Below are positions 59 through 49,626 of a DNA stretch of 64,000 bases, piece after piece (position 1 is the stretch's first letter; each line of letters begins with the position of its first letter). This stretch comes from Gemmatimonadota bacterium. GTDB lineage: Bacteria; Gemmatimonadota; Gemmatimonadetes; Gemmatimonadales; Gemmatimonadaceae. The translations under genes and the position numbers were made by a program. Location of the stretch: contig PMEM01000004.1 in NCBI GenBank assembly GCA_003155795.1, positions 62,001 to 126,000 of the forward strand, given 5' to 3'. Under the pieces are notes generated by a model, which ran no database searches, had not been told where the DNA came from, and saw only the letters and a program-made list of their open reading frames with translations.

Positions 59-940
59 TTAATCAGCACGTCCGGTATAGTGGGCGTCTGGTGGAACTGG
101 ATGCCGTCTGGCGATGCGCGGTGCAGTATCCAGGTACACGACAGACGGCCCGTCAACAGCGAGGAGTACAAGCCCCTCCTTTGCCCAGACGGCGGCGCCT
201 ACGCTTCCGACTCCCGTGGCACTAAACCGTGGGGAATCGAGCCAGGCGAGTAGGTGCCCCGGCTTAACAACGATGCGTTCTCCATCACCGATAACGCGTC
301 GCACAATGTGGCCGCCTGCAGCGATGAAGACATCGCCGTCGCCGGTTGCGCGTTCGTACCAGAACGCCGCACCGGACGTAAGAGCAGCTAAGGGGGCGCG
401 CATCGTACCAACTCCAATCGAGATGTCACCCGAATGTGCAACCCACGCTCCGCGTCTCGACGTCAATGCCGTCCCGTTACTGATTGGAATCCGCTGGATC
501 TGACCACCAGAGTGGTTCACAAACGTCGCCATTCCCGGCTTCGTAGCACGCACCGTCAGCATCAGTGCAGATTCGCCAGCAGCCGTGCGTCCAATGAAGC
601 CGCCGAACAGTCGAAACGGAGCTGTCAGGAGCGACGGCAACCATCTGATTGCAACCGGGAGATCCGCGATCCACCCGCGGCGCTGTGCCCCAATTAGCGA
701 GACGTTTAAGACTGGACTCACGGTCGCTGAATGGAACGACCCCTTCTCCGCGAAGACGATATCGCCAGTCTCCATTGAGAACACGAGATACTGGCGGTCC
801 GCGCCAGCGATCGCGGTTTGAACTGGCGATGGTGCGTTGTCGTGCTCGGGGAAAGGCGAGCTCGCGGTAACTACATCCATCACGCGAATTCCTTCCTCGA
901 TCGCTGTATCTAATTCGTCCGGCAGGGCGACATTCGGCAT
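59..940 (-). CDS. AIM24 family protein
   Basis: 293 residues. The pattern fits the AIM24/TIGR00266 family: successive beta-rich segments with glycine-rich signatures, including GDIVFAEKGSF near residue 60, a second block around GQIQRIPISNGTALTSRRGAWVA, and GDGDVFIAAGGHI followed by ERIVVKPGHLLAW near 200-235. The family forms a trimeric TRAP-like beta fold; its bacterial function is poorly known. There is no signal peptide or clear membrane span. It begins 9 bases after the stop of the preceding gene, so the two are probably co-transcribed from the promoter region at 1862-2049. No Shine-Dalgarno sequence is visible. Family call fairly secure; role on this element unknown. Confidence 0.75.
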   Translation of the reverse strand: MPNVALPDELDTAIEEGIRVMDVVTASSPFPEHDNAPSPVQTAIAGADRQYLVFSMETGDIVFAEKGSFHSATVSPVLNVSLIGAQRRGWIADLPVAIRWLPSLLTAPFRLFGGFIGRTAAGESALMLTVRATKPGMATFVNHSGGQIQRIPISNGTALTSRRGAWVAHSGDISIGVGTMRAPLAALTSGAAFWYERATGDGDVFIAAGGHIVRRVIGDGERIVVKPGHLLAWLDSPRFSATGVGSVGAAVWAKEGLVLLAVDGPSVVYLDTAPRIARRHPVPPDAHYTGRAD

Positions 941-949
941 AGGATGCGA

Positions 950-1861
950 TTATGCCGCAGTCGCTACTTTCGTAGCGACACGAGATGTGCGTTTCTCTTG
1001 CTGGGGAGGAGCCTCGGCTGCTGTGTCGAGCGCGCCGGTCGCTGCCTTTGCCAAGTGCTGAGCAGGAGTGTATTCACACGTCGCGAGGGTCGAGAACACG
1101 CCGCGGTCGGCGGAAACGAGAAGCGACGTTGTCTCGAACTCGTACCGCAGGAGGTCCGCGAGTGCACGGTTTTTAGCCTTGGCTTGCAAACGTTCGTACG
1201 CTTCTGCCAGCGGGCGGAGCAACTTCATGTCGGCCTGCGCGTCATCGGCAGCCAAAGGCAGGGCAAGTGTGCCGACTCGGAGGAGATCGACCGCAGTGTT
1301 GTCAGGTGCGACTTCAGCCAAACCGATCCATGGCTTCGACTCGCCGCGTGGGACGCGATCAAGCACCCGACCACCTGCGGCAAGGAGTTCACGTTCTGTG
1401 CGCAGATCTGCAGCAAGTACGAAAATGCCACCTTCCGCATTTCCAGATGCTTTAAGTTCGGCTGGAGACTTCGGAATCGTGACGCCTTTCCGGACAGCGA
1501 GGAATCTCGGGTTGCCGAACGGTTCTAAGCCCGTGATCGATTGCTGGATTGCGCCGCAATAGCCGGACGTCATCGTGGGATCCATGCGTTTGTCGATCAA
1601 GACACGCATGAAGTCCCCGTAAGTTCCCGACAGCCATGTAGTTGCACCGTCACGATGTATGCGAAGGTGCTCCGCGAAGATACGCGGAGGTGCCCCTTTC
1701 ACACCAACGACAAGGTGACAAAAATCGAACGGTTCGGCATTGCCGTTACGGCCGGCATCGCGTTCCGTTTCAGCATTGTTGTCGCAGCCGAACTGAAGCA
1801 CGAGTTTCACGCCCGTTGCCGAATTCGACCGCGCAAGCAGTATCGCTGGCGCGTTCATCAT
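950..1861 (-). CDS. Hypothetical protein, first gene of AIM24 unit
   Basis: 303 residues, not recognised. It starts MMNAPAILL, has no signal peptide, and ends in an Ala/Lys/Arg-rich tail. The middle has mixed alpha/beta character (for example GVTIPKSPAELKASG and GGIFVLAADLRTERELLAAGGRVLD) but no catalytic motif I can name. The conserved GGACTGACAACT element ends only 8 bases before the ATG and no Shine-Dalgarno sequence intervenes, so the transcript may be leaderless or nearly so. It is followed after 9 bases by the AIM24-family gene and is probably its operon partner. Confidence 0.6.
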   Translation of the reverse strand: MMNAPAILLARSNSATGVKLVLQFGCDNNAETERDAGRNGNAEPFDFCHLVVGVKGAPPRIFAEHLRIHRDGATTWLSGTYGDFMRVLIDKRMDPTMTSGYCGAIQQSITGLEPFGNPRFLAVRKGVTIPKSPAELKASGNAEGGIFVLAADLRTERELLAAGGRVLDRVPRGESKPWIGLAEVAPDNTAVDLLRVGTLALPLAADDAQADMKLLRPLAEAYERLQAKAKNRALADLLRYEFETTSLLVSADRGVFSTLATCEYTPAQHLAKAATGALDTAAEAPPQQEKRTSRVATKVATAA

Positions 1862-1869
1862 AGAGTTCG

Positions 1870-1881
1870 AGTTGTCAGTCC
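1870..1881 (-). promoter_or_regulatory. Conserved regulon element, copy A
   Basis: Read on the minus strand this is GGACTGACAACT, preceded by AATCTGTA and followed by CGAACTCT, then the ATG at 1861 (8-base gap). The same 12-bp core occurs exactly at five other gene starts in the window. Promoter or operator identity is inference from position and conservation. Confidence 0.75.
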
Positions 1882-1990
1882 TACAGATTCGTCGCGGTCC
1901 AGTCGCATGCGCGATAGGTGGCGTTCCAGAAGGTACAACTACATTCGACGTGTCCGCAAGGACGAACTGCTCCTACGGATTATTCCCTTA

Positions 1991-2013
1991 CTCCGGTTAA
2001 GTATCGGCCGGAG
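1991..2013. other. Inverted repeat in intergenic region
   Basis: CTCCGG (1991-1996) and CCGGAG (2008-2013) form a 6-bp stem with an 11-base loop, in the 188-bp gap between the helicase gene stop (2050) and the next start (1861). It could be a weak terminator for the helicase transcript. No T-run follows, so this is uncertain. Confidence 0.3.
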
Positions 2014-2049
2014 CCCTGATAATTAGAGTTGCCATTGTTTCCGGATGGA

Positions 2050-3975
2050 CTATACACCCGCCCTTTGGCCTTTGAGCTCTAATTCCTCCCGGAGGCGGTC
2101 CGGCAGTGTGGTATATCGACGGTCACTGCCCGCATCGGTGACGCAGTATCGAATCCGTTCATCCGTTCCCCATGTGACAGACGCCTTCCGTGCCCGCGTG
2201 TACCCTGTGTAGTAGCGGTTCCTCGTTGCCAGGCTCCTGGCGGTAGCATCGTGGACGACCTGAAGAACAACACCGTATTCGCTCCCTTGCGTCCGGTCAA
2301 CGGTCATCGCGTATCGTAGCATGCACTCCCTGGAGGCCGATGAAGGAACGATGTATTCGTCACCGCCGGCGCGTGCAAGTGTGAAGGTCCTGCTCGCCCG
2401 ATCAATAGCGACAACCTCGGCCGCCGTGCCGTTTCGCAGGAGCGATCCATCGCTCGACTTGATCGAGCCAATTACCAATATTGGGTCGCGTTTCCGAAGG
2501 CAGTTCACCTTGTCCTGGTATGTCCAACGCAAATCTCGCTCATCAGGCGGCAGCGGATTCAACCTGTTCCGCATCATACCGCCAAGCCGGATCGTGCCTA
2601 GAGGCCCGGGCCCCTGCGGTGTGATGATTTGAACAAACTCGTGGGGGGACAAACCGTAGGCAGTCATGAGCGTCGAACATGCAGTGTCGACGATCCATCG
2701 CGCAGCCGCATCCATCGCGACCTCTTCGGCCGGGGTGGAACGCTTCGCGGCCTTTGTCGCCATTTCTCGATAGAGCGGCGGGACGCGTGCTGCGTCGTAC
2801 CATGCGGCAGTGTAGTCTTGCTTCCCGCCGAAGGGGTCAGTAAATCGCGGCATTCGGCCTTCTGCGATCGCGAGCCCGTTGTCAGTCAATAGGCCTGCGG
2901 TACGTCGCACCTCAGTCAACCTGATAACTGGTACTATCGACGGCATGTTGACCAACGTCTCGTACACCGTACCAGGACCGACTGGCAAGAGCTGATTGAC
3001 GTCACCGACCAGCACAACCGTCATGTTGTCGGGTAACGATGCGAATAGACGTTCATAGATAATTGCGTCTGGCATCGTTGCTTCATCCACGAACAGTATC
3101 GTTGCCAAAAGCGGGTGTGCGCTTTCTACGGGATACGAATCCGGCTCGGTGTCGTCCGGTGTAATCCCGAGCGTTGCATGGAGCGTTTGTACCTGCGGAA
3201 CTCCGCGAGAGTGAAGAACGTCCGCCGCTTTTCCAGTTGGTGTAGCCCCGAGCACCCGATCGCCGAGCGCACTGTAGAGACGATTGATTTCCCGGATGAC
3301 CTCCGTTTTACCGGTGCCTGCAGCGCCGGTAATCACGACCAATCGATGTCGCGCAACTGCGATCACCGCCTCTTGCTGCGACAGAGAAAGCGGGGTTCCC
3401 TCTGCAAGGCGGCGACGCACGAGCGCTTCCCTTCTCTCTGAATCTGCCGGCGGTGTGGTTAGGAGGTCTGTGATACGGCGAGCCAAGGACGCCTCGGTTG
3501 CCGCTGCAGACGGTAATGCTACAGAGTCGCCGAACACTTCGAGGACACCGTTCACCATGAGCTGATGCACAGTGTTGGCAAGACTGTCCAGCTCGACCGG
3601 TTCACCTCTTATGCGCTGGATGAGACGCGGCAGATCGAGCATCGGAACTGCCATGTCCCCACGGTCTAGCAACGCATGTCTCACAGCCCAGACTACTGAT
3701 GCAGGGGCTCGCGAACTCGTGTGCTCGATACCGTCTTCGGCCGCCCAACGGTCAGCGATCTCGAACGGGAGCCCGCCGGCGAGAACAAGCGCCCATGGAT
3801 CAGCAAGCGCATACTGCGCGAGAGAACCGCGCGCATCCTTTGCGAGCAGGTTGGCTAATGATCCGCGTACGGCAAATTCGAGCCTCTCGGCGCGCGCAGC
3901 TATTTGCGCTGCGGCCGCGCTTGTCGTCGCAGCAGAGCGCGATTCGCGCTTCATCGGTTGAGCGATAGCCGACAC
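2050..3975 (-). CDS. RecD-like superfamily 1 DNA helicase
   Basis: 641 residues. The C-terminal two thirds show SF1B helicase motifs: Walker A GAAGTGKT (217-224), motif Ia ATPTGKAADVL (about 244-254), Walker B LFVDEAT (294-300), motif III GDVNQLLPVG (324-333), and a UvrD_C_2-like end with TVDRTQGSEY and YTGYTRARK. This resembles RecD2 and conjugative-element helicases, which unwind DNA 5'-3'. The N-terminal about 200 residues are helical and unassigned; RecD2 has helix-hairpin-helix repeats there but I see no clear one. The longest start is GTG at 3975, one base past the previous stop; an in-frame ATG lies at 3954. Probably acts in plasmid replication, transfer or repair. Confidence 0.85.
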   Translation of the reverse strand: MSAIAQPMKRESRSAATTSAAAAQIAARAERLEFAVRGSLANLLAKDARGSLAQYALADPWALVLAGGLPFEIADRWAAEDGIEHTSSRAPASVVWAVRHALLDRGDMAVPMLDLPRLIQRIRGEPVELDSLANTVHQLMVNGVLEVFGDSVALPSAAATEASLARRITDLLTTPPADSERREALVRRRLAEGTPLSLSQQEAVIAVARHRLVVITGAAGTGKTEVIREINRLYSALGDRVLGATPTGKAADVLHSRGVPQVQTLHATLGITPDDTEPDSYPVESAHPLLATILFVDEATMPDAIIYERLFASLPDNMTVVLVGDVNQLLPVGPGTVYETLVNMPSIVPVIRLTEVRRTAGLLTDNGLAIAEGRMPRFTDPFGGKQDYTAAWYDAARVPPLYREMATKAAKRSTPAEEVAMDAAARWIVDTACSTLMTAYGLSPHEFVQIITPQGPGPLGTIRLGGMMRNRLNPLPPDERDLRWTYQDKVNCLRKRDPILVIGSIKSSDGSLLRNGTAAEVVAIDRASRTFTLARAGGDEYIVPSSASRECMLRYAMTVDRTQGSEYGVVLQVVHDATARSLATRNRYYTGYTRARKASVTWGTDERIRYCVTDAGSDRRYTTLPDRLREELELKGQRAGV

Positions 3976-3976
3976 G

Positions 3977-5143
3977 TTAAAGCGGAGGTAGGTTTTTGAG
4001 GAGCCGAGTGGTCGCCCGATCTTCGTCTCGAACAGCTATTTCACCAAGGAATGGCGATCCGAATCTCGGTGGATCATCAAGGATGGCCATCACGCTGAAT
4101 CGTGATTCTCTCGCTTCGTGAGCGCGACGAGAGGAATGTGCAACTCTAGAATCCTGTTGGCGTTCTTTTTCATTGCCGGGGATATTCGGCTGAATTTCCT
4201 TTAACGCTTTCCGCCCGCTTGGCATGTGAGCCCAGGTAGGGTCTGGAGCTCGCACTTCGAGTTCGTAGGCGTGGAACTTTGCCGGATTCGTAAAAACATC
4301 TTCAGGAGCTCTGTCCGGGGAACGGAATAGCTTGGTTGCATCCCAAATCTCGCCGAGCGTGAGCGGGATGCTGTGCATTACACCTGGAGGAGCAGGCAAT
4401 GGCGCCCTCACAGGCTCCGCTCCCCCCGTACCTCGAAGGCTCATGAGCGTGAAGATCGCGAAGTCCGCCGAGCGTTTGGTATAGCAGACAGATGCTGCAG
4501 CCATCCTGTCAATCACAGCCCATGCTTCGCGTACGAACGGGCTTGCCGCTCCTATACGAATAGATAGCGAGAATGCAACTTGCCCCCAGCCGAAAGTATT
4601 GAGATCCTCGATTGTATGCCCTTGAGCAAGGGAGAGTGACCCGTACCATCGCGCAAGCCAGCGCCAGACTGGGACATTTGCGGCGTGGTGTTCGATGGCA
4701 CTGAGGAGCACAGCACGGTGAGCAGATGCGCGACCTGCAGCACGAGAGGAGCTCGTTTCAATTTCTTGAGACTCAGACAATCCTACAGGAACGTCATCCG
4801 GGCCAAGCAGAACGGTCTGTCTCGCTTGTACATATCCCTCCAAAACACCTGTGGCTGCAAGCATTGCCGGGCCAGTCGGATTCGCGAGCATATCACCGCT
4901 CATCGTATCGAGTGCCGGAGGAACGCGAGCTTCCGAGGTTTGCTCAGTTTTGGCAAGCCGGGCCGCCGTTGCAAGCACCAACTGTTCCGTGGTATTCGGC
5001 GGAGCATTGCTTGCCCACTCGTCCCATACATCCGCTTCCACGCGAGCGACGGCAGGGTCAAAGGGGATGATAAGTGCCCGAAGCACAGCTTGAACCCATT
5101 CCAGGTTCAGTTCCTCAACTTGGTTTGTCACACGTTGGGTCAT
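3977..5143 (-). CDS. Hypothetical protein
   Basis: 388 residues, unrecognised. The protein is largely helical and soluble, with Trp-rich segments around 165-190 (VPVWRWLARWYGSL, FGWGQVAFSL) and a charged C-terminal third. There is no signal peptide or nucleotide-binding motif. The ATG overlaps the stop of the upstream gene by 4 bases (ATGA), so translation is probably coupled, and the helicase gene follows at once. Conserved gene packing supports a real gene in the same operon. Confidence 0.6.
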   Translation of the reverse strand: MTQRVTNQVEELNLEWVQAVLRALIIPFDPAVARVEADVWDEWASNAPPNTTEQLVLATAARLAKTEQTSEARVPPALDTMSGDMLANPTGPAMLAATGVLEGYVQARQTVLLGPDDVPVGLSESQEIETSSSRAAGRASAHRAVLLSAIEHHAANVPVWRWLARWYGSLSLAQGHTIEDLNTFGWGQVAFSLSIRIGAASPFVREAWAVIDRMAAASVCYTKRSADFAIFTLMSLRGTGGAEPVRAPLPAPPGVMHSIPLTLGEIWDATKLFRSPDRAPEDVFTNPAKFHAYELEVRAPDPTWAHMPSGRKALKEIQPNIPGNEKERQQDSRVAHSSRRAHEARESRFSVMAILDDPPRFGSPFLGEIAVRDEDRATTRLLKNLPPL

Positions 5144-6225
5144 ATGGCAGAAGCATGTGCAAGGTGTCCGACTTTTACAACAGTATCAGCGAGCAAAGCT
5201 GAAAGCAGCATGTCTGAGTTTGTTCGTTTCCAAGGTGGCAGATCCCGCGTGGCCCCCGCTACGATCGCGAATAACGCCGATGGTGTGCGATCTTCGACCG
5301 GACGGGTACCAAATGCTTTCATTATTTCATCACGCATCTTCTTACCGAGCCCCCTTTCAAGGGAGCCAGCGGCGGCGTCCACCTGCTGAGGAGTGCACCG
5401 TAGGGTCCGGATCTTACTCCACCGCTCGGACGCGCCTCGTGCTGAATGTAGAAGTGAAGGTAATGCGGCTACGAGCCGTTCTGCTAAGGCGTCCCGATTG
5501 GAGATCACATGACGATATTCCAGTGTCGGCTCTGATAGCCGAGTAGCAATTCCGTTGTGTCTTACGAGGCCAGGGGATAACGTGAGCATCGCGTGACCAG
5601 TCTCGCTATTGCGCACCACTATTCCCGGTCGATGGGCGCCGCGTTGCCGCTGGGCCGAATCATTTAACACAAACTCGATTCGCGTTTCGGTGCTGGACCG
5701 TAATGCTCGGGTTGGGGATATGCCTAATGAAGTCAACGGACGCTCCAGTAGCCGGGCTACCGCGATGTCGTTGAGAGGGGTATAGTCCGCCGTCACGATC
5801 GCGCGCACTGTTGAGTCGACGACCCGCCAGCGGAGCGTTCCCTCTCCAACTTTCTCCCGCCATACTTCGGCGACCAGACAGGCCAAAGCCATTGGGGAGA
5901 GGTCAGCGACCGCCTGCATCACACCCCATTTGATGTCGAGATGACCGGCAAGATGATGGAGTGCTACAGTATCAATATCACAGACAGTAGATACATCCTT
6001 GCCGGCACGTCGAAGCTGAAGACGGACACTCAGTGGAGATCCATCGCTTTCCTCGCGATCGCGCGAGACGAAATCGGTTGGCGCGACTGTTCGGACCCGA
6101 TCATCGCGGATCCCTTCGCGATCAGCGAGCAACACGAACAATTGCTTCCACGAGTTCGAACTGTCACCGCGGAAGCTACGCTCAATGTCGAGGCTCGAGG
6201 CCGAGTCAATCCGTGCTGGGTCCAT
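5140..6225 (-). CDS. Hypothetical protein
   Basis: 361 residues, unrecognised. Mixed alpha/beta composition without signal peptide, membrane span or familiar catalytic motif. The first part contains FVLLADREGIRDDRVRTV, and the C-terminal part ends LLADTVVKVGHLAHASAI. It overlaps the upstream gene by 20 bases and the downstream gene by 4 bases, typical of a compact operon. Function cannot be assigned. Confidence 0.55.
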   Translation of the reverse strand: MDPARIDSASSLDIERSFRGDSSNSWKQLFVLLADREGIRDDRVRTVAPTDFVSRDREESDGSPLSVRLQLRRAGKDVSTVCDIDTVALHHLAGHLDIKWGVMQAVADLSPMALACLVAEVWREKVGEGTLRWRVVDSTVRAIVTADYTPLNDIAVARLLERPLTSLGISPTRALRSSTETRIEFVLNDSAQRQRGAHRPGIVVRNSETGHAMLTLSPGLVRHNGIATRLSEPTLEYRHVISNRDALAERLVAALPSLLHSARGASERWSKIRTLRCTPQQVDAAAGSLERGLGKKMRDEIMKAFGTRPVEDRTPSALFAIVAGATRDLPPWKRTNSDMLLSALLADTVVKVGHLAHASAI

Positions 6226-8449
6226 CAGGCATTAGGGATTCACAGAAGTCGTCGAAATCGTCCTCGGTGTGTGGTGCAAGTGAGGGCGGGAGCGGCGGGA
6301 CTTCGGTGGCGGGATCAACTTCCTTTTCTGTGCATTCCGCAACAAATGGGCGTCCGTAGAGCGCATCCGCGTTCGCGGCGAAGCGACTGTCTTGCTTATC
6401 GGAAGAAGCGCGCAAATTTGCAATAATTGGTTCCCGTTCTTCCGATGGCATTACTGCTAGTAGAGCGCGGGCTTGGAGTTCTGCATTTACCGGGAAGCCA
6501 GCGCGCTCCCATGCACGGAACAGACGTCCTCGGAACTGCCGGTCCGCGAGAAGTGCAGGAGGTAGATCCAGGGGTTTTACCGTACCGTTGATTGCGTAGA
6601 CATCCTGAGACGGGTCCGGCGCTTCTATCGCCGGACCATCTTCGCGCGACAAGGCACCATTTACGTAATGGCGTTTTGTACCATCCGGCTCAATTACAGC
6701 GGCGCCTCCCCCATCGCGATGCAACGGACCCTGGACGGTGCGTGTCTCACTTCCAGTCTGCAATGTGACGAGATCATCCTTGACATAGCGGAAGATTGCG
6801 TCAACACGACGGCCACGAACGAAGACAGCCGGACCAGCCGCTTCATCGGCACTCCGGGGCAGACCAGCGAGGTCATCCTGCTTTGGATGCACGCTTGGAG
6901 CGTTACTACGACGTACGCGCGAACGAAAAGAGGGCGCTTTGGGGTGAGGAGGCTCCTGCCGTGACGGCGCGGCTGGTGCTGGCTCGTCCCAAATACCGCC
7001 GATGTCTAGCCGGGTTGGCGGAGCGAGGTCCTTGGCCACATCACCTGCGGGGAACTCGTATTCCTCGTTTTTTTGGTTTTGCGTCCAACCTTCACGCTGC
7101 TCGCCTACATCACCGGCGAGGGATTCGTATTCCTCGCTTCGCTGGTCGGGAGACCATTCTTCATCCTGCTCGCCCATTGGGGGTGAATCGAAGCCTGGTC
7201 CGACGCTTGATCCGAACTCCGGCCCACTTTCAGACTCTTGCGGGGAATCTGAGCGGCGACGGGCACTTACTGCATCCGTATCCTGAATGCCAAGATCAGC
7301 CTGAGCATCCTTGCGTCGAAGACTCCGAATCGACGTATAAAGCGATGATACGGCGTCATGAGCGTCGACCAGCTTGAACTCACCGGGTCGCATTGCGGGC
7401 GAGCCAATTTGTGCAGCCGTTGTAACGCCCGGGACTGGAGATGCTGCTGCCGCAGAAGCGCGGCCATCCGTGCGAGATACGGCATCGATCCAAGCCGCTC
7501 GATGCAGCGACTCTGACTCCCTGGCTGCATCGGAGAAGTAAGCGTCTAATGCATCTTGGTCGCCTTCGGCGGAGCGTAGAGCGACATCATCGGCCAGCCA
7601 ACGGCGGACAGCATTTGGTAGGTCGACCTCGACAATCGTACGGGCAGCAATGGTCGTACGCGCCCAAGCGCACACCGTCGCTTCATACAACACATCTCCT
7701 CTAGCATCCGCGTGAGTCAGCATTGCGTCCGCGCGAAGTGAACGTACTAAGCTGGTGGGGTCATCGTCGAGCCAGTCAGTGAGTGACGCAGCCGAGTCGC
7801 CGGACGTCGACTGAGCGGCAAACACCAAGGTCCCCATATCCTCATCACGCAATCTCGGGGAATCGCTGCTGGCTGCTGCACCACCCGTGATAGGTTGGCC
7901 AGGCGTGCCAGCGCGAGAAGATCCGCCACCAGGATCGTCCGGGCCACGATCTGGACGGTGTGTGCCGCCATTACCGTGATCATCGACCGCCTTCTGCCAG
8001 CGACCGCGATCGTCAGCACGTTCCTGCGAGCGCCTAACATCCCGGTCAGCATCGAGAATCATCGCTACTTCTGTCGAGCCAAGATTGAAGTCAGCGCCCA
8101 TGACCTCAATGAGGTCGTCTTCAGTGATCGTCTCGCCTTTATCAGCTCGCGCAATCAGTCGGTACCGCGCATTCCTCTGCCGTTGTGCGAGCGTGTAATC
8201 GAACAAGCTCATGTCTCCGCTCGCGAGGCGTAGCGAGTCTTGTGAGCGGTGCATCCAATCCCACCGACGCACATGAGCTCGCAGCAATCTGAGAGATATA
8301 TGATCGGGAGGAATTACAAGTGCCAGCGGCTCCATGAGTGGCGGACCCTTCACTTCGCTCTGAGATGCCCCGATAGCGGAACGTCCAGAACCGGCGTCGC
8401 TAGGACGAGGGCCGAATAGCCGCGAAAAGAGTCGATCCTTGTCGGCCAT
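6206..8449 (-). CDS. Large acidic protein with HREDGPA-type repeat
   Basis: 747 residues, mostly unrecognised. The middle (about residues 160-480) is acidic and of low complexity, and probably disordered. It includes two tandem 23-residue units (each GEQ...EEYE..AGDV) encoded by a 69-bp duplication at 7037-7174. Residues about 573-622 hold a beta repeat of the type LHRDGGGAAVIEPDGTK, YVNGALSREDGPAIE, INGTV. This matches the HREDGPA/VNGK repeat seen in many phage and giant-virus proteins, whose function is not established. ATG start at 8449. Possibly a scaffold or adaptor in the same pathway as its helicase and primase neighbours. Confidence 0.6.
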   Translation of the reverse strand: MADKDRLFSRLFGPRPSDAGSGRSAIGASQSEVKGPPLMEPLALVIPPDHISLRLLRAHVRRWDWMHRSQDSLRLASGDMSLFDYTLAQRQRNARYRLIARADKGETITEDDLIEVMGADFNLGSTEVAMILDADRDVRRSQERADDRGRWQKAVDDHGNGGTHRPDRGPDDPGGGSSRAGTPGQPITGGAAASSDSPRLRDEDMGTLVFAAQSTSGDSAASLTDWLDDDPTSLVRSLRADAMLTHADARGDVLYEATVCAWARTTIAARTIVEVDLPNAVRRWLADDVALRSAEGDQDALDAYFSDAARESESLHRAAWIDAVSRTDGRASAAAASPVPGVTTAAQIGSPAMRPGEFKLVDAHDAVSSLYTSIRSLRRKDAQADLGIQDTDAVSARRRSDSPQESESGPEFGSSVGPGFDSPPMGEQDEEWSPDQRSEEYESLAGDVGEQREGWTQNQKNEEYEFPAGDVAKDLAPPTRLDIGGIWDEPAPAAPSRQEPPHPKAPSFRSRVRRSNAPSVHPKQDDLAGLPRSADEAAGPAVFVRGRRVDAIFRYVKDDLVTLQTGSETRTVQGPLHRDGGGAAVIEPDGTKRHYVNGALSREDGPAIEAPDPSQDVYAINGTVKPLDLPPALLADRQFRGRLFRAWERAGFPVNAELQARALLAVMPSEEREPIIANLRASSDKQDSRFAANADALYGRPFVAECTEKEVDPATEVPPLPPSLAPHTEDDFDDFCESLMPDGPSTD
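7037..7174 (-). repeat. 69-bp in-frame tandem duplication
   Basis: Two adjacent 69-bp units (7106-7174 and 7037-7105) inside the 747-residue gene encode diverged 23-residue repeats sharing GEQ, the W, EEYE and AGDV positions. The duplication keeps the frame, and the copies have drifted, so it is not recent. Confidence 0.75.
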
Positions 8450-8451
8450 GC

Positions 8452-9666
8452 TTACAACCCTCCTGCGTCGCCGACAGCAAGTACTTCATGCTCCTCACCT
8501 TCGACATCTACCACGGACTCGAGTAACTGCGCAACGTCGTAATCGGCGACTCGCGGTGAAGTGCCGGTCGCCTCAGCACGTGCGAGGTCTCTCTCTCGTG
8601 CCGAAGCAACGTATTTCGCGAAAAACCCTGGATCAAGATTCACGAGTTTTGCTCCACGTTCGACAGCATCAGCTTGCAGCTCGATGCATGCGAGTGCTTC
8701 GGCGGTTTCGCTCAGTTCGCTCGCGACAAAGTAGGGATCTGTACATGCGATATTGACGTGCGCTGGACCGAACCTGGTGAATACGCGCGCATGCTCTTCG
8801 AAGAGCGAAACGCGTGGCAGGTTATGGACAGCGCGCGCCAGGCCAGGAGCATCACCAGCCCGAAGCAGTTCGTTCGCATCGACATCTGCAGGCATGCGTA
8901 CCACACTGATGGCTACGCCAGCGCGCGCCAATTTCCTTCCGCCTCGAAGGATTCCATCAAATCCACCTTCGTCAGCATCCAGCATCAGCACTACATGCTT
9001 GGCACGACTGCTCAGCAGGGCGAGTCGCTCACCGGAGAGTTCTTTGCCGTGCCATGCGACTGCAGGCGGCAAAGACGGGTCGCACTCCCGCGCGGCCGCG
9101 AGTGACAGTTGATCGAGTTCGCCCTCGACTGCGATGACCGTATGCGCGTCAAGCGGAAGTCTGTCAAATCCGAACATCGCTCCCGAGAGTGCGCTAGACG
9201 TGGCATCGAATCGACGAGCATCTTCGCTCACCTCGCCGGTTACAGCACGATACTTGATCCCAATGACCTGTCCAGAAGGATCTGTGAGGGGGAGTGCGAT
9301 GTATCCTCCACCGCGGGGTTTGTCACAAAGCCCTTTTCGGTCGTAGCTACGAACAGCAATACCGACGGAGAGCATAACATCATCAGAGTGGCCGAGCGCC
9401 CTCAGTGTGTCTGAGAGCATTGAACCTCCAGACTCGTCGGCGGATGCCGGAAGGTACCCAACACCGTACGACCGGGCGATTGACTCAGGGATCGCGCGGG
9501 AGTGGGTCAGGTAGTGACACGCCACCTTTCCATCCGGAGCCCAGAGGTACCCTTGGAGGATCCGTACTGCGTCAGCGAGTAAGCGGCTTTCTGGAGACGC
9601 TGTTACTCCTGGCGAAGGATCCTTACCCGGAGCAATGGCCAGAAGTTCTGAATTGGTATCGACCAT
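8452..9666 (-). CDS. DnaG-like primase catalytic core (TOPRIM), no zinc finger
   Basis: 404 residues from the ATG at 9666. A DnaG-type N-terminal catalytic region (ESIARSYGVGYLPAS, YIALPLTDPSGQVIGIKYRAV) leads into a TOPRIM domain with AVEGELDQLSL (Glu near 182) and VLMLDADEGG (DxD near 231-233), the metal-binding residues of this fold. The N-terminal CHC2 zinc finger of normal DnaG is missing, and only a helical tail follows the TOPRIM domain. The ATG overlaps the stop of the upstream gene by one base (TGATG). The zinc module may be supplied in trans by one of the CHC2 proteins at 15514 or 20920. Activity as a primase or TOPRIM nuclease is inferred. Confidence 0.8.
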   Translation of the reverse strand: MVDTNSELLAIAPGKDPSPGVTASPESRLLADAVRILQGYLWAPDGKVACHYLTHSRAIPESIARSYGVGYLPASADESGGSMLSDTLRALGHSDDVMLSVGIAVRSYDRKGLCDKPRGGGYIALPLTDPSGQVIGIKYRAVTGEVSEDARRFDATSSALSGAMFGFDRLPLDAHTVIAVEGELDQLSLAAARECDPSLPPAVAWHGKELSGERLALLSSRAKHVVLMLDADEGGFDGILRGGRKLARAGVAISVVRMPADVDANELLRAGDAPGLARAVHNLPRVSLFEEHARVFTRFGPAHVNIACTDPYFVASELSETAEALACIELQADAVERGAKLVNLDPGFFAKYVASARERDLARAEATGTSPRVADYDVAQLLESVVDVEGEEHEVLAVGDAGGL

Positions 9667-12155
9667 CAAATCGCCCTCACCGCTACAGATGCGATCGAGC
9701 CGGCGACCTCGATCATTTCTACTGATTCTTCTGGTACATTCGAGTCCACATGGATCACGCTCGACTCGGATCTCCCCCGCTCAAAGCTCAAACTCTCGCC
9801 GTCGGGAGAAAAGCGTAGCCAAGCGGATGCTTCGATCATTTCTCCGTTCTGCTTCGTACGCGCAACTTCCTGCGCCGTCCCGGAGGCACGTACAATATCC
9901 AGTGCGTCGTTCAAAGCGGTCGGCGACGAATACACGCGAGGCGGCTTCGCCCTCGAAGTGAATTTGGCCGCCGAAACGATATATTCGTGCTGCCCATCGT
10001 CGACGCTTAAATGACCTGTGCCAACCGATGGGAGAATTGCTACTTGTGCACTCGCTCCCAAGTTGCGGACGGGCTTGTCAAAGTCCAGTGGACGACCCAC
10101 TCCAAGACCACTCGCAGCCACGGAGAGCGTGCTCGAGAGGAATGCGACCTTGTCTTCCGTCAAGGCGAGTCGGCGATCCGGAGTTTCTGCGCCAGAGGCA
10201 AATTCGAATACTGAATTGCCCAACTCCTTGATAACGGCTATCATCCCAGCGCGTTCCGGCCCGATCGTTAAGGAAGAATCCCCAGCTTCGATCAAAATGC
10301 CGCCGTCCTTTCGAACAACAGATACGGCTACTCCGTCGCCCGGGTTCGCAACGAGCGCCGGGTCACTGTGTGCGGCAGCGGCACGAACCGCGATTAACTC
10401 ATCACCCCACAATGCTATTAGATCTGAAGGAGACGCGTTGAGTGCCGACTTCAGGAGTACTGCCTTGGACATATCTGTGGGCCGAGCACTCCAAGTACTC
10501 ACGACGAAATTCGTGTGGGCGCCTTCGCGCTGTCCCGGGACCTCGGCTATCATTACCGCGGTATCGTTTTTCGTGTCGCATAGTACGGCTACGTTATAGT
10601 CCACTGCGTGAAGTCCGTAGGCCGCAGGCGGGACAAGGAGATGTTCTCGGAGTCCCGCAGAGCGTGCACCACGATCCGTAACGCGGATTGCGAATTCACT
10701 GAGTAGTGAAGCCTGAGATGGCACGCGGATCCGACGTATTGATCCAACTCCTATCTCGTCAGGAATCAAATTCCGAACAGTAAGTTGGCGACTGCTACGC
10801 TGAGAGTCTTGGCGTTTTCGGCGGGCCCGCTGCTTTGCAACTGAATCCAATCTCAACGCGGTGACTCCAGCCGCAATTGAGATACGGTCCAGTGCATCCG
10901 GAGACAAGGTTGCTGCCGGCCATAGATCAGCCACAATCTCAGCCTGGGCCCTTTCGTCTGGAGAGAGCTCGTGCATCGCCTCATCATCCAGCTTGCCGTG
11001 AGCCCGGAGCGCTCCACGCAGAACGTGTATAGGCACCGCGGTGAGCCTAAGCGCGAATGAAGCGTCTAACTCACGAACCTCACCTTTAGAGACGAGCGTG
11101 ATAATGCGGCTGGTTTCGGCGTCGAGCGAGCCGTCGCCGGTCGAGTCAGTACGTTCCAACACCGCCCGCGTCGATTCGTACGGCGGCCGGGCAGCAGAGA
11201 CTCCCTTATGAGACACGATCAGAGCGAGCCGATCTGCCTGGCTTGGGATCAGTGTTGGTGACGAGAGGCCTGTCGTGTCTCCCACGTCACTGCTAAACAT
11301 GGATGCAACCACGGCATATGGTACAGCGGTTCGAACTGTCGCCGGCACTCGTTCCCGCGCATCATGGCAGGCTGCGAGCAGTATCATCGTGTGGCAATAA
11401 TCTCGTTCGATCTCTGAAACCTCCGTGGTGGTCTCGAGAGAAAGCAGTGATCTATCGGCCGCGGCGGATAGAATTGCCTTACTCGGAGTGTCGAGCTCCT
11501 CGATCACATCATTTGCCGCCAACACCCAAGCTGGCGCCTCAGTTGTCCACACCTCGTACTCACGATTGGCCAGAGACAGTCGGGCGCTTCTCACGAAACG
11601 TTCCAGTGCCACATCTTCTTGTAGCATGTCTCGATCGCGATTGGCGAGCATCGCACCACGAACCCCGAATGCCGCCATCAGTGGGAGTGGAGCATCATCT
11701 GCAATCGCTGAAGACGTTAAGGCGCGCATTACGGCCGTTCGCCCTGTTGGACGAGACCGTGTTGCCTCGATAGTAGTTGCCATCGCTCCAACCGATAGCG
11801 AGAGTGGTGGCGCACTGGAATCCATCCCGATGCCGATCTCTGCAATTGCCCGTTGTAATTCCTTCGCATCGGTCGCTGCCACCATCGCCACAGCGGCGGT
11901 CACGGTCGCGTCCCGTACCTGAGTACGGAAAGCCCCATCCTCGCTCTCGAGGCTAATCCCGAAGTCTGGATCATAGATCACGCGAACAATGGGATCATCG
12001 AGATTCGAGCCTGATGCAGCAGACATCATGCGCTGCAAGCGCGCCCTCAGAACGAGCGGACCGAGGGCGTCCTGCAGCGCACTGGCGGGAACTCTGGCTG
12101 AAGCAGAGTGCAGCGCGTTACGGGGGGTAAGATCCGATTCGAGAAAAGGTGACAT
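9666..12155 (-). CDS. Large hypothetical protein
   Basis: 829 residues, unrecognised. The first 400 residues are Ala-rich and helical; the second half is more beta-rich and reads like repeated sandwich segments (VAVSVVRKDGGILIEAGDSSLTIG and following). There is no signal peptide, membrane span or nucleotide-binding loop. It is translationally coupled to the TOPRIM gene downstream and follows a 68-bp gap after the next gene upstream. Size and position make it a candidate structural component of the 59-15235 cluster, but this is a guess. Confidence 0.55.
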   Translation of the reverse strand: MSPFLESDLTPRNALHSASARVPASALQDALGPLVLRARLQRMMSAASGSNLDDPIVRVIYDPDFGISLESEDGAFRTQVRDATVTAAVAMVAATDAKELQRAIAEIGIGMDSSAPPLSLSVGAMATTIEATRSRPTGRTAVMRALTSSAIADDAPLPLMAAFGVRGAMLANRDRDMLQEDVALERFVRSARLSLANREYEVWTTEAPAWVLAANDVIEELDTPSKAILSAAADRSLLSLETTTEVSEIERDYCHTMILLAACHDARERVPATVRTAVPYAVVASMFSSDVGDTTGLSSPTLIPSQADRLALIVSHKGVSAARPPYESTRAVLERTDSTGDGSLDAETSRIITLVSKGEVRELDASFALRLTAVPIHVLRGALRAHGKLDDEAMHELSPDERAQAEIVADLWPAATLSPDALDRISIAAGVTALRLDSVAKQRARRKRQDSQRSSRQLTVRNLIPDEIGVGSIRRIRVPSQASLLSEFAIRVTDRGARSAGLREHLLVPPAAYGLHAVDYNVAVLCDTKNDTAVMIAEVPGQREGAHTNFVVSTWSARPTDMSKAVLLKSALNASPSDLIALWGDELIAVRAAAAHSDPALVANPGDGVAVSVVRKDGGILIEAGDSSLTIGPERAGMIAVIKELGNSVFEFASGAETPDRRLALTEDKVAFLSSTLSVAASGLGVGRPLDFDKPVRNLGASAQVAILPSVGTGHLSVDDGQHEYIVSAAKFTSRAKPPRVYSSPTALNDALDIVRASGTAQEVARTKQNGEMIEASAWLRFSPDGESLSFERGRSESSVIHVDSNVPEESVEMIEVAGSIASVAVRAI

Positions 12156-12223
12156 TGTCAGGCAATGAGGATGGACAGCGGGTGGGACACAATCAGAGAA
12201 GACAGCCCCAGATGGGTGCAGTT

Positions 12224-12955
12224 CTACAACACCGCCGAGCCCTCCGATCCAGTAGTCCGCTTTTCTGCAGCCTTAACGACATCTACCAGTGCCTGCCTAT
12301 AGGCCAGCGGCAAAACGCCGCTGATAGAGGCCGGTGCTTGGCGTTGGATGAGGGCGAAGGTGTCAGCCAGTACTGCCGACGCATCGGAAATCATCAACGA
12401 GGTTGGCGGAAAGCATGACATAGGTTCACGCGATCTAGTTGATTGCCCAGCTACAGCTTCGATAAACGCATTGAGAGTGGAAAGAGTGTCTCTTGGCGAC
12501 CGGAATCGAGGTTCAGCCACGATGACAGAGAAAGGGCTGTCGTGTGCCCAGCACACTTCTAGCGCAAGGCAAGTAGTTACCGGCGACCCAATCGGAATGC
12601 GTATCACTCTTGGCGGTTCTCCGAGCGCCTTTGCGTCTGCGCAAACGACCCCTGCTACCGCGGCAGCGAATGCCACGCATCCAACAACGTCGCGCGTGTC
12701 ATCTGGAAACTGATGTGAGTTCCCTTCACTGTTGCTGCGCCTCTCCTGCACGATCAGTGTGAGCCTCGTCGTACCGTGCGCATCGTAAAGCCACCGAAGC
12801 GCCAGATACCCCGGCATGCACTGAACAGCAACGTGAGGTAAAGGCACGCGGGCGCTCGGCGGCTGTGGTGCATTCACGCACTCGTCGATAATGGTCACCG
12901 GTCGGTTAAACTCGCTTCCGATTCGCGCCAGCGCGCGCACGGGTTGCGGCTTCAA
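12224..12955 (-). CDS. Hypothetical protein
   Basis: Up to 243 residues, unrecognised. The longest reading starts with TTG at 12955 and overlaps the upstream gene by 50 bases. GTG codons at 12940 and at 12898 (8 bases after the upstream stop) are plausible shorter starts. An Ala/Val/Cys-rich stretch near residue 95 (VVGCVAFAAAVAGVVCADA) could be a buried helix. No motif points to a function. Confidence 0.5.
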   Translation of the reverse strand: MKPQPVRALARIGSEFNRPVTIIDECVNAPQPPSARVPLPHVAVQCMPGYLALRWLYDAHGTTRLTLIVQERRSNSEGNSHQFPDDTRDVVGCVAFAAAVAGVVCADAKALGEPPRVIRIPIGSPVTTCLALEVCWAHDSPFSVIVAEPRFRSPRDTLSTLNAFIEAVAGQSTRSREPMSCFPPTSLMISDASAVLADTFALIQRQAPASISGVLPLAYRQALVDVVKAAEKRTTGSEGSAVL

Positions 12956-13748
12956 TCAAACGCGGCATCGCGTTCACGATCGGCAGGTCCGAAGGGGGAA
13001 TGTTTGCAGGGGGTGAATCGTCCGGGCCCGGAAAGCACTCCAGTAGGCCTAACACGAGACCTATAGCGACCAATGTCAGAGCGTCCGTCCGGTTGAGTGG
13101 TGCCGAGTTCAGCATCGTGAAGAAGATGAACGACGGTTGCATGGAGAGTCGGACGGGTGGGAGCTGTGCTACGTCCGGGGCGGGACGCCCAGCCTCGCGC
13201 GCCGCCTCCCAGACTTCGTCAATCTCCGCCTCCCATGCTTCTACAAATGCCTGCACGAGTGGCTCATAAAATCCGCTCGCATCCTGGACCATTGCAACGT
13301 CGATTGTAACCTTGTTGTCTTCCGAGAACACGAACTCGCGGCGACCGCCAAAGTCAATCTCTCTTGCTTGTGCCAACATGGCCGCGAACTGTTCCTGACG
13401 GGAAATTCTCGGTAGGGGTCGCACGGCTCGCTCTCGTATATCTGAGATTTCCTTCTGAATTGAGACAATGAAGGATCGCAGGTCAGTTGCGATCTCATCT
13501 TCGCGGCGAGCAAGTGCGACGTCCGAACCGAAGTCGTAAGGATTGAGACCGGCGAGCGGTATTTCATCCACTTCTGCTTCCTGAACGCAATAGGCATACA
13601 CCTTCTCTAATTCCGCAACTGCTGGCGTGATATACAGGCTTTCGATCAAGTTGAATCGATCCGCGAGCCGCTCCTCTGGGGTAGCATCCCCTTCACGAAG
13701 GTCAACGGAGTGTGAGGATGACGTTTGTGATGGCAACGAGATAGTCAT
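12906..13748 (-). CDS. Hypothetical protein with C-terminal hydrophobic segment
   Basis: 280 residues from the ATG at 13748 (MTISLPSQ), which lies 2 bases after the stop of the gene upstream. A longer reading to 13856 would overlap that gene by over 100 bases and looks spurious. The body is acidic and helical. Near the C-terminus, LTLVAIGLVLGLLECF could be a membrane or buried helix. No family recognised. Confidence 0.55.
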   Translation of the reverse strand: MTISLPSQTSSSHSVDLREGDATPEERLADRFNLIESLYITPAVAELEKVYAYCVQEAEVDEIPLAGLNPYDFGSDVALARREDEIATDLRSFIVSIQKEISDIRERAVRPLPRISRQEQFAAMLAQAREIDFGGRREFVFSEDNKVTIDVAMVQDASGFYEPLVQAFVEAWEAEIDEVWEAAREAGRPAPDVAQLPPVRLSMQPSFIFFTMLNSAPLNRTDALTLVAIGLVLGLLECFPGPDDSPPANIPPSDLPIVNAMPRLIEAATRARAGANRKRV

Positions 13749-13750
13749 TG

Positions 13751-14272
13751 TTAGCTCAGGCTTAGAGAACGTGGGAAGGAACATGGGTAGATGAACGCGT
13801 CGCCGGTGGACCGGTAAAAGGTGTGAGCTTTTCTTCCTGCGCGTCGTTGCGCACAAGCGAGTCGGCCGTTGATGTCGCCAGCCATGGCACCGTCAACACC
13901 CGGCCAGAAGCGGATCGCAATCTCGAATCGAAACCCGATATCTTGTAGGGCAAGCGCCTCTTCACACGTGATCACATCGAGTGGTAACGCAGCGAGTGGA
14001 TTCCCCAACGGACATCCGGCATCAATGTCCGCGTCGTCTACGACGACCATATCTACATTCGCTGCAACTCTCGATGAGATACCTCGCATGGCCGTCAGTG
14101 CTGCGAGCCATGGGAGTTTCCAGTGCACAAGGTGATACTCGTACGACTCGTACGGCCGGGCCGATGCACTTCTCGCAGCGAGGCGAACGGTTTTCCTGGT
14201 CAACCAATCAACCCGCTTGCTCAGCGACGGGTCGGCTGGGAGCGGTGCGACTCGAATTTCCAGATTGTTCAT
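13751..14272 (-). CDS. Hypothetical protein
   Basis: 173 residues, unrecognised. A GGAGA Shine-Dalgarno sequence just upstream of the ATG supports the start. The sequence has a basic N-terminal half and a VDMVVVDDADIDAG segment near the middle, a beta strand followed by acidic residues, but this is too little for an assignment. It sits in the minus-strand operon 2 bases before the next gene. Confidence 0.5.
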   Translation of the reverse strand: MNNLEIRVAPLPADPSLSKRVDWLTRKTVRLAARSASARPYESYEYHLVHWKLPWLAALTAMRGISSRVAANVDMVVVDDADIDAGCPLGNPLAALPLDVITCEEALALQDIGFRFEIAIRFWPGVDGAMAGDINGRLACAQRRAGRKAHTFYRSTGDAFIYPCSFPRSLSLS

Positions 14273-14293
14273 CTCGTTCTCCGTCGCGTAGGG

Positions 14294-15235
14294 TTAGAGG
14301 GCATGGTGACGAAGGAATGGACGTGCGAGGAAGAGGTCCACTCCACATGCGACAAAGTCGCCGGCGTAATTCAGCTCCCCTGCATTTCGCGCCGCGACAA
14401 CTTTGTAGGCCGCGCGCCCAACACCAGGTACGCGTGCGAGCATAGAGGCGTCCGCGCTCCCTACATCAATCGGGTAGGATTTACGGAGTGTATCCACCGC
14501 AGCGCGGTCGACATCTTGCGGCGACAGTATCGCTCCAATGCTGTCACACGGAATGTCTGATGGGGTGAGGTTCATCGACCACATCGTGTCCACTGCATGT
14601 GCGACACGTTCTATGTGTACAGAACGAGTTTCTGCGCTCAAAGCGATTGCGATCGTGGTAACATGATCTTCACGCTCGAGATCGCGGATTGCATCAAGGA
14701 CGGCGAGATCCGATATAAGTCCCAGTCGGATGCGTGCAATAATTGATCGGCTTGCCGTCGGATAGTCATCACCTCGAGATGGCACTCGCAAGCACTCACG
14801 AAGCACCCCCCAGCGGATTGGATCGTCAGCGATCCACGGCGACGCCGCATCCAACGGGATTACAACTCCAACGTTCGACCATCGATCGTCAGTCCAGAAC
14901 GCCTCGAACATCTCCGCAGTCACGGCTGGCGGTGCCTCGACGTCTGTTGGGATAGACGCCTTGAGAGCAACCGCAACCGCGGCTGCTTGTCGGAGTATCC
15001 CCTCCGCGCCATTCGCGCCTATCGCCGGCTCGTCCGCACTTAGGAGAATTCCACCAGTTCGGCGTCCGCTAGTTGTTGACATGTCGGTTTTGCGAATGGC
15101 AAAAGCAACGGCCTCCGGCTCTGCTTGAAACGCAGCAGCCGAGAGCCGGAAGTGCCAGACATGCGAGACGCGTCCGCGCTCCCCACATAGCATCGGTGCG
15201 GGACGCACGTCGAACAGGGTGGCGCGATCAGGCAT
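14294..15235 (-). CDS. Hypothetical protein with possible helix-hairpin-helix
   Basis: 313 residues from the ATG at 15235, chosen because GGAGG lies about 10 bases upstream; a longer reading reaches 15298. It is probably the first gene of the run down to 2050. Near the C-terminus, DASMLARVPGVGRAAYKVVAAR resembles a helix-hairpin-helix DNA-binding motif (LxxVPGVGxxxA), consistent with a DNA-handling role beside the helicase and primase proteins. The rest is not recognised. HhH call tentative. Confidence 0.55.
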   Translation of the reverse strand: MPDRATLFDVRPAPMLCGERGRVSHVWHFRLSAAAFQAEPEAVAFAIRKTDMSTTSGRRTGGILLSADEPAIGANGAEGILRQAAAVAVALKASIPTDVEAPPAVTAEMFEAFWTDDRWSNVGVVIPLDAASPWIADDPIRWGVLRECLRVPSRGDDYPTASRSIIARIRLGLISDLAVLDAIRDLEREDHVTTIAIALSAETRSVHIERVAHAVDTMWSMNLTPSDIPCDSIGAILSPQDVDRAAVDTLRKSYPIDVGSADASMLARVPGVGRAAYKVVAARNAGELNYAGDFVACGVDLFLARPFLRHHAL

Positions 15236-15513: not shown

Positions 15514-17064
15514 GTGACCGCTCCCCTACCCGGATCACGAACTACATCTCGCCGGCCGACGTCAAGCAGACAGTCGGCGGGGCTCGTCGACGTTGAGGCC
15601 GTGAAGGCTCAACTCGACATCCTCACGTTGGCCCGGTCGTTCCACGGCATCAACCTCAAACAGAAGGGCCCCTTCCACCGTGGAGGATGCCCCTGCTGTG
15701 GTGCGAGTGAGAAGAAGGAGCCCTTTCAGGTTGATCCGCGTCCGACCGGGAAGAAAGGGCCACACTTCCACTGCTTCTCATGCGGAGAAAGCGGCGACGT
15801 CTTCAACCTCTTTGCGTTGCAGCAACGAGGTGACCCGCAGATCCCCAAAAATCAATTCATCGCGACGGTCCGGGCTGCGGCCGAAGCGTACGGGATAACG
15901 ATTCCGGAAGCAGGCTCGGGAACCAGACGTTCACCCGAACAAGTGCTCCGTGGCGAGATCCAGACAGCGTGGGCGAGCGCTCACGAGTATTTGCGTGGGC
16001 GGTTTCTCGACAGGACCGGACGGAATGGGACTGACGAGAATGGCCACAACCGTCCACTTGGAGCAGCATCACGCATCGGGATATTCGATGACGGGTTGGA
16101 AGACCATCTGACAAAGCTCGGGATTTCCAAAGAGGCACGAGCCAGAGCTGGTCTCTCTTCCGAGGATCTCGAGATGTTCGCTCCTGGCGTGGTGCTACTA
16201 CGGATGGCAGGAGGGATCCCAGCAGGGTTATCACAGCAGTTCGCCAATCGAGAATGGGTACATCGTCGATCTTCCGAAACGTTGTTCGAGCCAGCGTTCT
16301 TATCATCTCGCCCGAGCGGTCGACCCGCCAACCGTGTACTGATTCTTGTTGCCGATGCAGACCGGGCTGGGCGACTCGCAGCGAACCTCGCTGCTCTGGC
16401 GCAAGCAGACGAGGATGAGGCACGTCGCGTTGCCACAATCGGGATAGTCGCCGCGCCATTTAACGATCCACTCGATCTCGAGTCTCTGGCACGATCGACG
16501 AAACGCGCAGTCATTCTCGCACCTGGACCTGACACGCCAACACGTGCAACGTCGGAGCAGGGTGCGCGACTGTTCGCAGCCGGCATTGCAGTTCGTGTTG
16601 CCGAGGCAACGCCGTATGCCTCGGGTACTGCCCCTATCGGAGACCGAACCGATCACGGGGTCCGCGCGCTTGATACATGGGATCAGGCCGATGACTACTT
16701 TGCATGGCAGGCGAAGCAGATCCCGAATGCTACAGGACTTGATGCGTGGCAGAAGCGACGAGTCCCCGCTCTGCTGTCTCTCATGCCGGACTCACTGATG
16801 CAGGAAGTCTTTGCTTACCGAGCGAGCCAGGCAGCAGAGGAAGCCTTGCAGCGCATCGGCGCTACAATACATGTCGATGCAAACACACAGATCACCCCAC
16901 AAGAAAACCATGTGCCGGATGGTCCCCCTGCGAAAGGCCGTCGCGTAACTGACAGCATGGGCGAGCCTACTGCAAATCCTACGGACAATGGCGTTGGCGA
17001 GCCATCTCTCGAGGAAGGGACGGTGCTTCCCGCAGAAGACAATACGCTGTCTCTCGGGTTTTAG
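15514..17064 (+). CDS. CHC2 zinc-finger primase-like protein with degenerate TOPRIM
   Basis: 516 residues. The N-terminus has a DnaG-type zinc ribbon with ligands at C59/C62 (CPCC) and C87/C90 (FHCFSCGESGDVFNL). A region near 275-290 (RVLILVADADRAGRLAANLAA) resembles the DxD..AG segment of TOPRIM, and RAVILAPGPDTPT near 331-343 is a similar but degenerate strand. I see no convincing EGxxD glutamate motif, so catalysis is doubtful. The tail (about 440-516) is of low complexity. The start is GTG directly after an in-frame stop, with no Shine-Dalgarno sequence. It converges with the MBL gene, 3 bases apart. Likely a primase accessory or template-recognition protein. Confidence 0.75.
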   Translation: MTAPLPGSRTTSRRPTSSRQSAGLVDVEAVKAQLDILTLARSFHGINLKQKGPFHRGGCPCCGASEKKEPFQVDPRPTGKKGPHFHCFSCGESGDVFNLFALQQRGDPQIPKNQFIATVRAAAEAYGITIPEAGSGTRRSPEQVLRGEIQTAWASAHEYLRGRFLDRTGRNGTDENGHNRPLGAASRIGIFDDGLEDHLTKLGISKEARARAGLSSEDLEMFAPGVVLLRMAGGIPAGLSQQFANREWVHRRSSETLFEPAFLSSRPSGRPANRVLILVADADRAGRLAANLAALAQADEDEARRVATIGIVAAPFNDPLDLESLARSTKRAVILAPGPDTPTRATSEQGARLFAAGIAVRVAEATPYASGTAPIGDRTDHGVRALDTWDQADDYFAWQAKQIPNATGLDAWQKRRVPALLSLMPDSLMQEVFAYRASQAAEEALQRIGATIHVDANTQITPQENHVPDGPPAKGRRVTDSMGEPTANPTDNGVGEPSLEEGTVLPAEDNTLSLGF

Positions 17065-46582: not shown

Positions 46583-46628
46583 CGCCGCGTTGCGGGAGAG
46601 CACTTCTCGGAGGACGACCGGGTACGTC

Positions 46629-46847
46629 TTACTCGATGTCGGCGCTCTGTTCACCGTCAGTCTCCACGATGTAGCCGAATGCGCCAATAGCCCGCCAGAG
46701 GATTTCCCTGGAGTCTTGATGACGCAGCGAACTATTGAGTTTTTGTTCCTTCAGTTTCGTAACTGCTCGGCACTCTGAGCAGGTTCCTGCCAACGCACGT
46801 AATGCTCCCGCGCCTTTACAGTATCGGCACTCCCAGCCAGACACCAC
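46629..46847 (-). CDS. Small zinc-ribbon protein
   Basis: 72 residues. CRYCKGAG and CSECRAV provide two CxxC pairs 12 residues apart, a zinc ribbon reminiscent of DnaJ-type CxxCxGxG. The C-terminal half is charged. It lies first in the pilin operon, 46 bases before the signal-peptide gene. Small size and lack of neighbours for comparison keep this moderate. Confidence 0.5.
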   Translation of the reverse strand: MVSGWECRYCKGAGALRALAGTCSECRAVTKLKEQKLNSSLRHQDSREILWRAIGAFGYIVETDGEQSADIE

Positions 46848-46910
46848 ACAACCCAGAAGTGTAAATGTACCGGAGGGAGCTACCGAGACTAATTATCCGC
46901 GATCGCATCC

Positions 46911-47035: not shown

Positions 47036-47054
47036 AATCAGAATCGAGGTCCGC

Positions 47055-49622: not shown

Positions 49623-49626
49623 CAGG

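Follow-up and report, generated by a model that had tools for sequence, protein, structure and literature searches.

Twelve consecutive genes, all on the minus strand, form a run at positions 59-15235 of the window we have analyzed, a stretch of 64,000 nucleotides which corresponds to positions 62001-126000 of a 196,270 bp contig. The contig belongs to a 3.98-Mb metagenome-assembled genome (MAG) of the Gemmatimonadota (G000). Three of the genes code for recognisable proteins: a helicase, a protein with a TOPRIM domain and an AIM24 protein. The other nine have no significant match to any family. The run continues beyond the edge of the window into genes of VirB type. Coordinates refer to the window unless the contig is mentioned.

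Neighbouring genes of the run overlap by 1, 4, 20 or 50 bases, or are separated by gaps of 2, 2, 9, 21, 22, 68 and 188 bases. In every gene the annotated frame has a clearly positive codon score, while the other five frames are negative or close to zero; these scores were trained on the remainder of the contig. By chance, a frame would stay open for 747 or 829 codons with a probability of about 1e-12 to 1e-13. An earlier note on this DNA described an eleven-gene cluster with eight unrecognised proteins, including those of 829 and 747 residues, and deduced an operon structure from overlaps and gaps of 2-9 bases. All eleven open reading frames are indeed found at the same place and strand, both large proteins lack a family match and the packing is operon-like. 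Nevertheless, the count must be raised to twelve genes and nine unrecognised proteins, because the single large gap is occupied by an omitted frame, 12224-12955 (TTG start, 243 amino acids), and no other frame at this place has a positive codon score. The range of gaps is also wider, from 2 to 188 bases. The helicase, TOPRIM and AIM24 proteins named in the note are borne out by Pfam matches (AAA_30 1.7e-29, Toprim_2 4.8e-10 and AIM24 4.3e-27, respectively). The likely promoter region of the operon is the intergenic segment 15236-15600, as suggested by divergent gene geometry: The run starts at 15235 on the minus strand, the next gene at about 15514 or 15601 on the plus strand. No sigma70-like site has been detected in this segment, and its repeats are short and imperfect.

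The helicase (2050-3954, minus strand, 634 amino acids, or 641 with an alternative GTG start at 3975) is a standalone superfamily 1 DNA helicase similar to RecD and RecD2. It also contains a UvrD_C_2 domain and aligns with RecD2 of known structure (PDB 3e1s, 9e-31). The AIM24 protein (59-940, minus strand, 293 amino acids) belongs to the AIM24/TIGR00266 family, well over the PF01987 cut-off (95.6 bits versus 25.7), and matches PDB 1yox (5e-9). Members of this family are found on some 31 plasmids of PLSDB; we know of no role for it in bacteria. The TOPRIM protein (8452-9666, minus strand, 404 amino acids) corresponds to the RNA-polymerase part of a DnaG-type primase, with a DNAG_N match (1.7e-4) and an alignment with PDB 4e2k (2e-10, residues 45-270). 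The acidic positions of the EGxxD and DxD motifs are kept. The N-terminal CHC2 zinc ribbon has not been found by Pfam on the same chain.

Two nearby genes do code for such a zinc ribbon, with no recognisable catalytic domain: 15514-17064 (plus strand), which only matches Zn_ribbon_DnaG (2.5e-8; PDB 1d0q 1.5e-4), and 20920-22179 (minus strand; Zn_ribbon_DnaG 1.4e-16, PDB 1d0q 1.8e-9). These CHC2 proteins might serve the TOPRIM protein in trans, as a separate zinc-binding partner. A third gene, 48306-49622 (plus strand), resembles DnaG along its length, including the zinc-ribbon region, and a longer DnaG match on another contig of the MAG (C48) is probably the host's own. The primases on our contig would then be extra copies.

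None of the nine remaining proteins shows a significant family match in Pfam, PHROGs, NCBIfam or PADLOC, apart from the tail of the first one. The PHROGs scan covered the run except 14294-15235 and the AIM24 gene, the PADLOC scan covered ten proteins of the cluster. All nine are coded on the minus strand. The first gene of the run, 14294-15235 (313 amino acids), ends in a helix-hairpin-helix which is shared with TIGR03916 (8.4e-6 over 58 amino acids, far under the family cut-off) and HHH_3 (0.063), and which possibly binds DNA. It is followed by 13751-14272 (173 amino acids), 12906-13748 (280), 12224-12955 (up to 243, start uncertain) and 9666-12155 (829). After the TOPRIM gene come 6206-8449 (747), 5140-6225 (361) and 3977-5143 (388), while 950-1861 (303) lies between helicase and AIM24. 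The 747 amino acid protein has an acidic middle part with a 23 amino acid repeat, which corresponds to a tandem 69 nt repeat at 7031-7168.

The 361 amino acid protein contains a faint DUF932-like stretch (residues 139-244), a pattern first seen by eye. Among 257 sequences (contig proteins and shuffles) compared with an alignment of seven DUF932 proteins of the phylum, it has the best score, 25.2 against 22.8 for the next one (E 0.015, 105 columns). The margin is small and the likeness is to be taken as a lead only: PF06067 (DUF932) does not match this protein at E<=1, nor any protein of G000 at E<=0.001. Marginal matches in other genomes (E 0.001-0.006) are short and scattered, and we have treated them as chance. 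No homologue of this protein was found among plasmids, and neither it nor the 747 amino acid protein has relatives among viral contigs. The 829 amino acid protein has no homologue in plasmids, phages or viral contigs. AlphaFold2 models from single sequences reach a predicted local distance difference test score of 38 for the 361 amino acid protein and 35 for the 829 amino acid one, and such models are meaningless.

The end of the AIM24 gene lies only 59 bases from the window edge. A VirB2-like pilin gene (contig 61497-62015, TrbC 1.4e-3) lies 43 bases further on the same strand, followed by a gene for a VirB3-like small membrane protein (contig 61061-61465, assigned from position and length) and one for a VirB4-type ATPase (contig 57680-61036). 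The latter has a Walker A motif; it has no direct PDB match, and an alignment search of viral contigs gave nothing. Its assignment comes from a protein of another contig, h014, which is 25% identical and matches plasmid TraC/VirB4 proteins. Four smaller genes separate VirB4 from a VirB6/TrbL-like gene (contig 51589-53730, TrbL 6.2e-5, slightly under the cut-off). Further on are found VirB8-like (contig 48901-49683, from position), VirB9-like (contig 47687-48880) and VirB10/TrbI (contig 46314-47690, TrbI 1.9e-9, over the cut-off) genes. All of them are on the minus strand.

The contig which contains h014, G015:C14 (61 kb), comes from another genus of the same bacterial family. The order of its genes matches ours: helicase (h007), two unassigned proteins (h008 and h009), AIM24 (h010), virB2-3-4, virB6, virB8/9/10, VirD4 and a TraD-like gene. 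Identities are only about 21-29% (25% for VirB4, about 26% for the helicase). In profile comparisons the probabilities of correspondence are 99.9% for VirB4, 99.4% for the helicase, 97.3% for VirB9 (h021), 96.9% for AIM24 and 88.7% for VirB10. There are some differences: Two genes are found between helicase and AIM24, instead of one, an extra gene (h011) lies between AIM24 and virB2, and neither TOPRIM nor large unassigned proteins are coded in front of the helicase. An all-against-all profile comparison has given no partner for the unassigned proteins compared, a set which leaves out the 243 amino acid frame.

The earlier note proposed a new module for replication, transfer or defence. Transfer is the part which is supported, because a VirB-type operon continues the cluster without a change of strand, and because the order helicase, AIM24, virB2-3-4 is kept in a distant element. 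We consider it rather probable that these genes represent the upstream part of a conjugation operon, dedicated to DNA processing or establishment, together with accessory proteins specific to this plasmid. Judging from geometry alone, the cluster and the virB genes would be co-transcribed. The RecD-like helicase would unwind plasmid DNA during transfer or establishment, and the TOPRIM protein of DnaG type, possibly assisted by a CHC2 partner from another gene, would prime the incoming single strand and allow its conversion to double-stranded DNA. Binding or annealing of single strands is a possible role of the 361 amino acid protein. AIM24 and the remaining proteins could have accessory roles, either in the transfer apparatus or in establishment.

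Several observations weigh against this interpretation. Promoters could lie in the two widest gaps (68 and 188 bases). No TOPRIM gene is found at the matching place in G015:C14, so the primase is not placed in the conserved core. Four other virB4 loci of Gemmatimonadota (G115, G201, G122 and G359) show no homologue of helicase or AIM24 beside virB4, and AIM24 does not adjoin a type IV secretion system in any of the seven PLSDB plasmid surroundings we have read. Besides, the profiles Relaxase (PF03432), TrwC (PF08751) and Replic_Relax (PF13814) detect no relaxase on the contig, a search which did not scan every gene and in which the MobA/MobL, MOBH, MOBT, MOBV and MOBC families were not sought. 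A scan of the called proteins for HUH relaxase-type motifs gave no candidate in the cluster.

The helicase, the primase and perhaps an annealing-type protein could instead form a plasmid replication or repair module which merely adjoins the virB genes and serves vegetative replication. We regard this as unlikely, yet it has some arguments in its favour. RecD-like helicases are present on 317 plasmids, many of them large, and in the four cases whose surroundings were read, no type IV secretion genes are annotated beside them. One of these helicases, on a Variovorax plasmid, has a TOPRIM gene and a gene for an H3TH exonuclease in its vicinity. Other parts of a replisome (clamp, complete DnaG, ribonucleotide reductase) are coded on the plasmid. 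On the other hand, the place of the helicase near AIM24 and virB2-3-4 is kept in the second element in spite of an identity of about 26%. The claim of a replication module stands only in part: A DnaG-type catalytic protein and a helicase are present, but other places of the contig code for the likely initiator (RPA type), ParA and ParB, the clamp and the complete DnaG.

A less probable explanation, which we hold as quite doubtful, is that only helicase and AIM24 take part in transfer, and that the genes ahead of this core with virB form an accessory cargo operon specific to the plasmid, which might serve anti-defence or establishment, among others. In fact, G015:C14 has entirely different genes ahead of its helicase (by inspection ArdC-like, recombinase and UvrD-like), and the 829 amino acid protein has been found in our plasmid only. 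The tight, overlapping packing of these genes with the TOPRIM gene and, nearly, with the helicase gene argues against this explanation. It is still more improbable that the nine proteins, the helicase and the primase without zinc ribbon form a new conjugative DNA-processing complex which replaces the relaxase-helicase and the primase, including an undescribed relaxase family.

A defence module is very improbable: The helicase matches RecD models of PADLOC (typeIV_RecD 2.1e-44), but such helicases are generic, the only other PADLOC match is weak (0.0026), and neither a csf match among the ten proteins scanned, as expected of a type IV-D CRISPR-Cas system, nor CRISPR-like repeats in positions 1-24000 have been detected. 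Assignment of the unrecognised proteins to a phage replication module was also considered: Those scanned have no PHROGs match, those searched have no phage or viral relatives, and a phage origin was rejected, as generic primases alone were matched.

Returning to the transfer interpretation, the contig which holds the operon is most likely a conjugative megaplasmid of roughly 200 kb. We call it a plasmid because it codes for ParB and ParA (49685-51729, minus strand; ParB_N 5.4e-9, AAA_31 2.4e-20), a DNA polymerase III beta clamp, a ribonucleotide reductase and an RPA-type replication protein (1.1e-6), these last three at L007:1509-2744, L008:603-2552 and L008:6436-8244. Overlapping contig ends were sought and not found, so the plasmid is not closed; an integrated element is less likely. 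Two coupling ATPases are also coded on the contig: one VirD4-like (contig 20500-24150, T4SS-DNA_transf 3.4e-19), the other TraD/TrwB-like (54652-58095, plus strand, 1147 amino acids, TrwB_AAD_bind 1.3e-6), which has a homologue in G015:C14 and a single distant match among 72,556 plasmids.

The plasmid has been found in two MAGs of uncultured Gemmatimonadota from peat soil, which belong to the same genus. In the second one (G003), two abutting contigs (18.7 and 68.5 kb) cover positions 56,462-143,872 of our contig (87 kb) with 99.9-100% identity. An apparent short deletion in this copy, at contig 64280-64332, turned out to be a gap of N in that assembly. Among 395 genomes sampled from the phylum, only one besides its own contains the 829 amino acid protein, and this is the same plasmid in G003; the corresponding public record is PLEG01000002.1, listed as Gemmatimonadetes bacterium isolate palsa_1236. 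In two other genomes of the genus, neither the coupling protein nor VirB4 has been found. This distribution fits a mobile plasmid, and one plasmid may also have been misbinned into two MAGs from related samples. The megaplasmid is new, very divergent and probably conjugative, with large unassigned proteins confined to it within the databases searched. A literature search has given no paper devoted to a Gemmatimonadota plasmid with type IV secretion.

Other genes of the plasmid should also be mentioned. Genes similar to type IV pilus or type II secretion components are found at 26716-48215: a secretin (26716-28782), a T2SSE ATPase (32090-33880), T2SSF (47055-48215) and a 923 amino acid protein with a prepilin N-methylation motif and PKD repeats (40306-43077). 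By analogy with IncI plasmids, they could perhaps form a thin mating pilus. A very long (916-993 amino acids) metallo-hydrolase of beta-CASP/RNase J type is coded at 17068-20049 (minus strand); its N-terminal half has relatives on many plasmids, its C-terminal half has no assignment. The 259 amino acid protein at 20144-20923 (minus strand) weakly resembles ECF-type (extracytoplasmic function) sigma factors (TIGR02937, E 0.016) and is possibly a plasmid sigma factor. The contig also codes for several DNA methylases, for a 568 amino acid protein which combines ArdC N-terminal anti-restriction, M78 peptidase and thymidylate kinase domains (L008:8534-10240), and for a 460 amino acid protein (L008:14031-15413) which matches the DNA-modification family Mom below the threshold (1.2e-4).

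How does this locus compare with known systems? Standalone RecD2-like helicases of large plasmids ("ATP-dependent RecD-like DNA helicase") resemble ours over 86-94% of the length, with 27-30% identity. In the four plasmids read, these helicases are found away from AIM24 and virB genes, unlike the helicase of our cluster. The order helicase, AIM24, virB2-3-4, kept twice, links AIM24 to DNA transfer, a link which can be tested. RP4 TraC and ColIb-P9 Sog are plasmid primases of conjugative transfer regions. Compared with these regions, our locus differs in several features: The zinc ribbon is not on the primase chain, nine proteins have no family, AIM24 precedes virB2, and no relaxase is found by the profiles used. 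The separation of zinc ribbon and catalytic core in different proteins makes a DnaG-type primase working in trans a testable idea. On the other hand, the order of the VirB2/3/4/6/10-like genes is that of VirB/Trb-type secretion regions, and, as in the RP4 and ColIb-P9 regions, TOPRIM primase and helicase genes adjoin the mating-pair-formation genes on the same strand. In the transfer interpretation, the cluster would work like the RP4 TraC or ColIb-P9 Sog primases plus a transfer helicase. SogL of the IncI1 plasmid ColIb-P9 is described in a passage of PMC8406263, citing Wilkins and Thomas 2000, as a primase which is delivered to recipients by the conjugation system.

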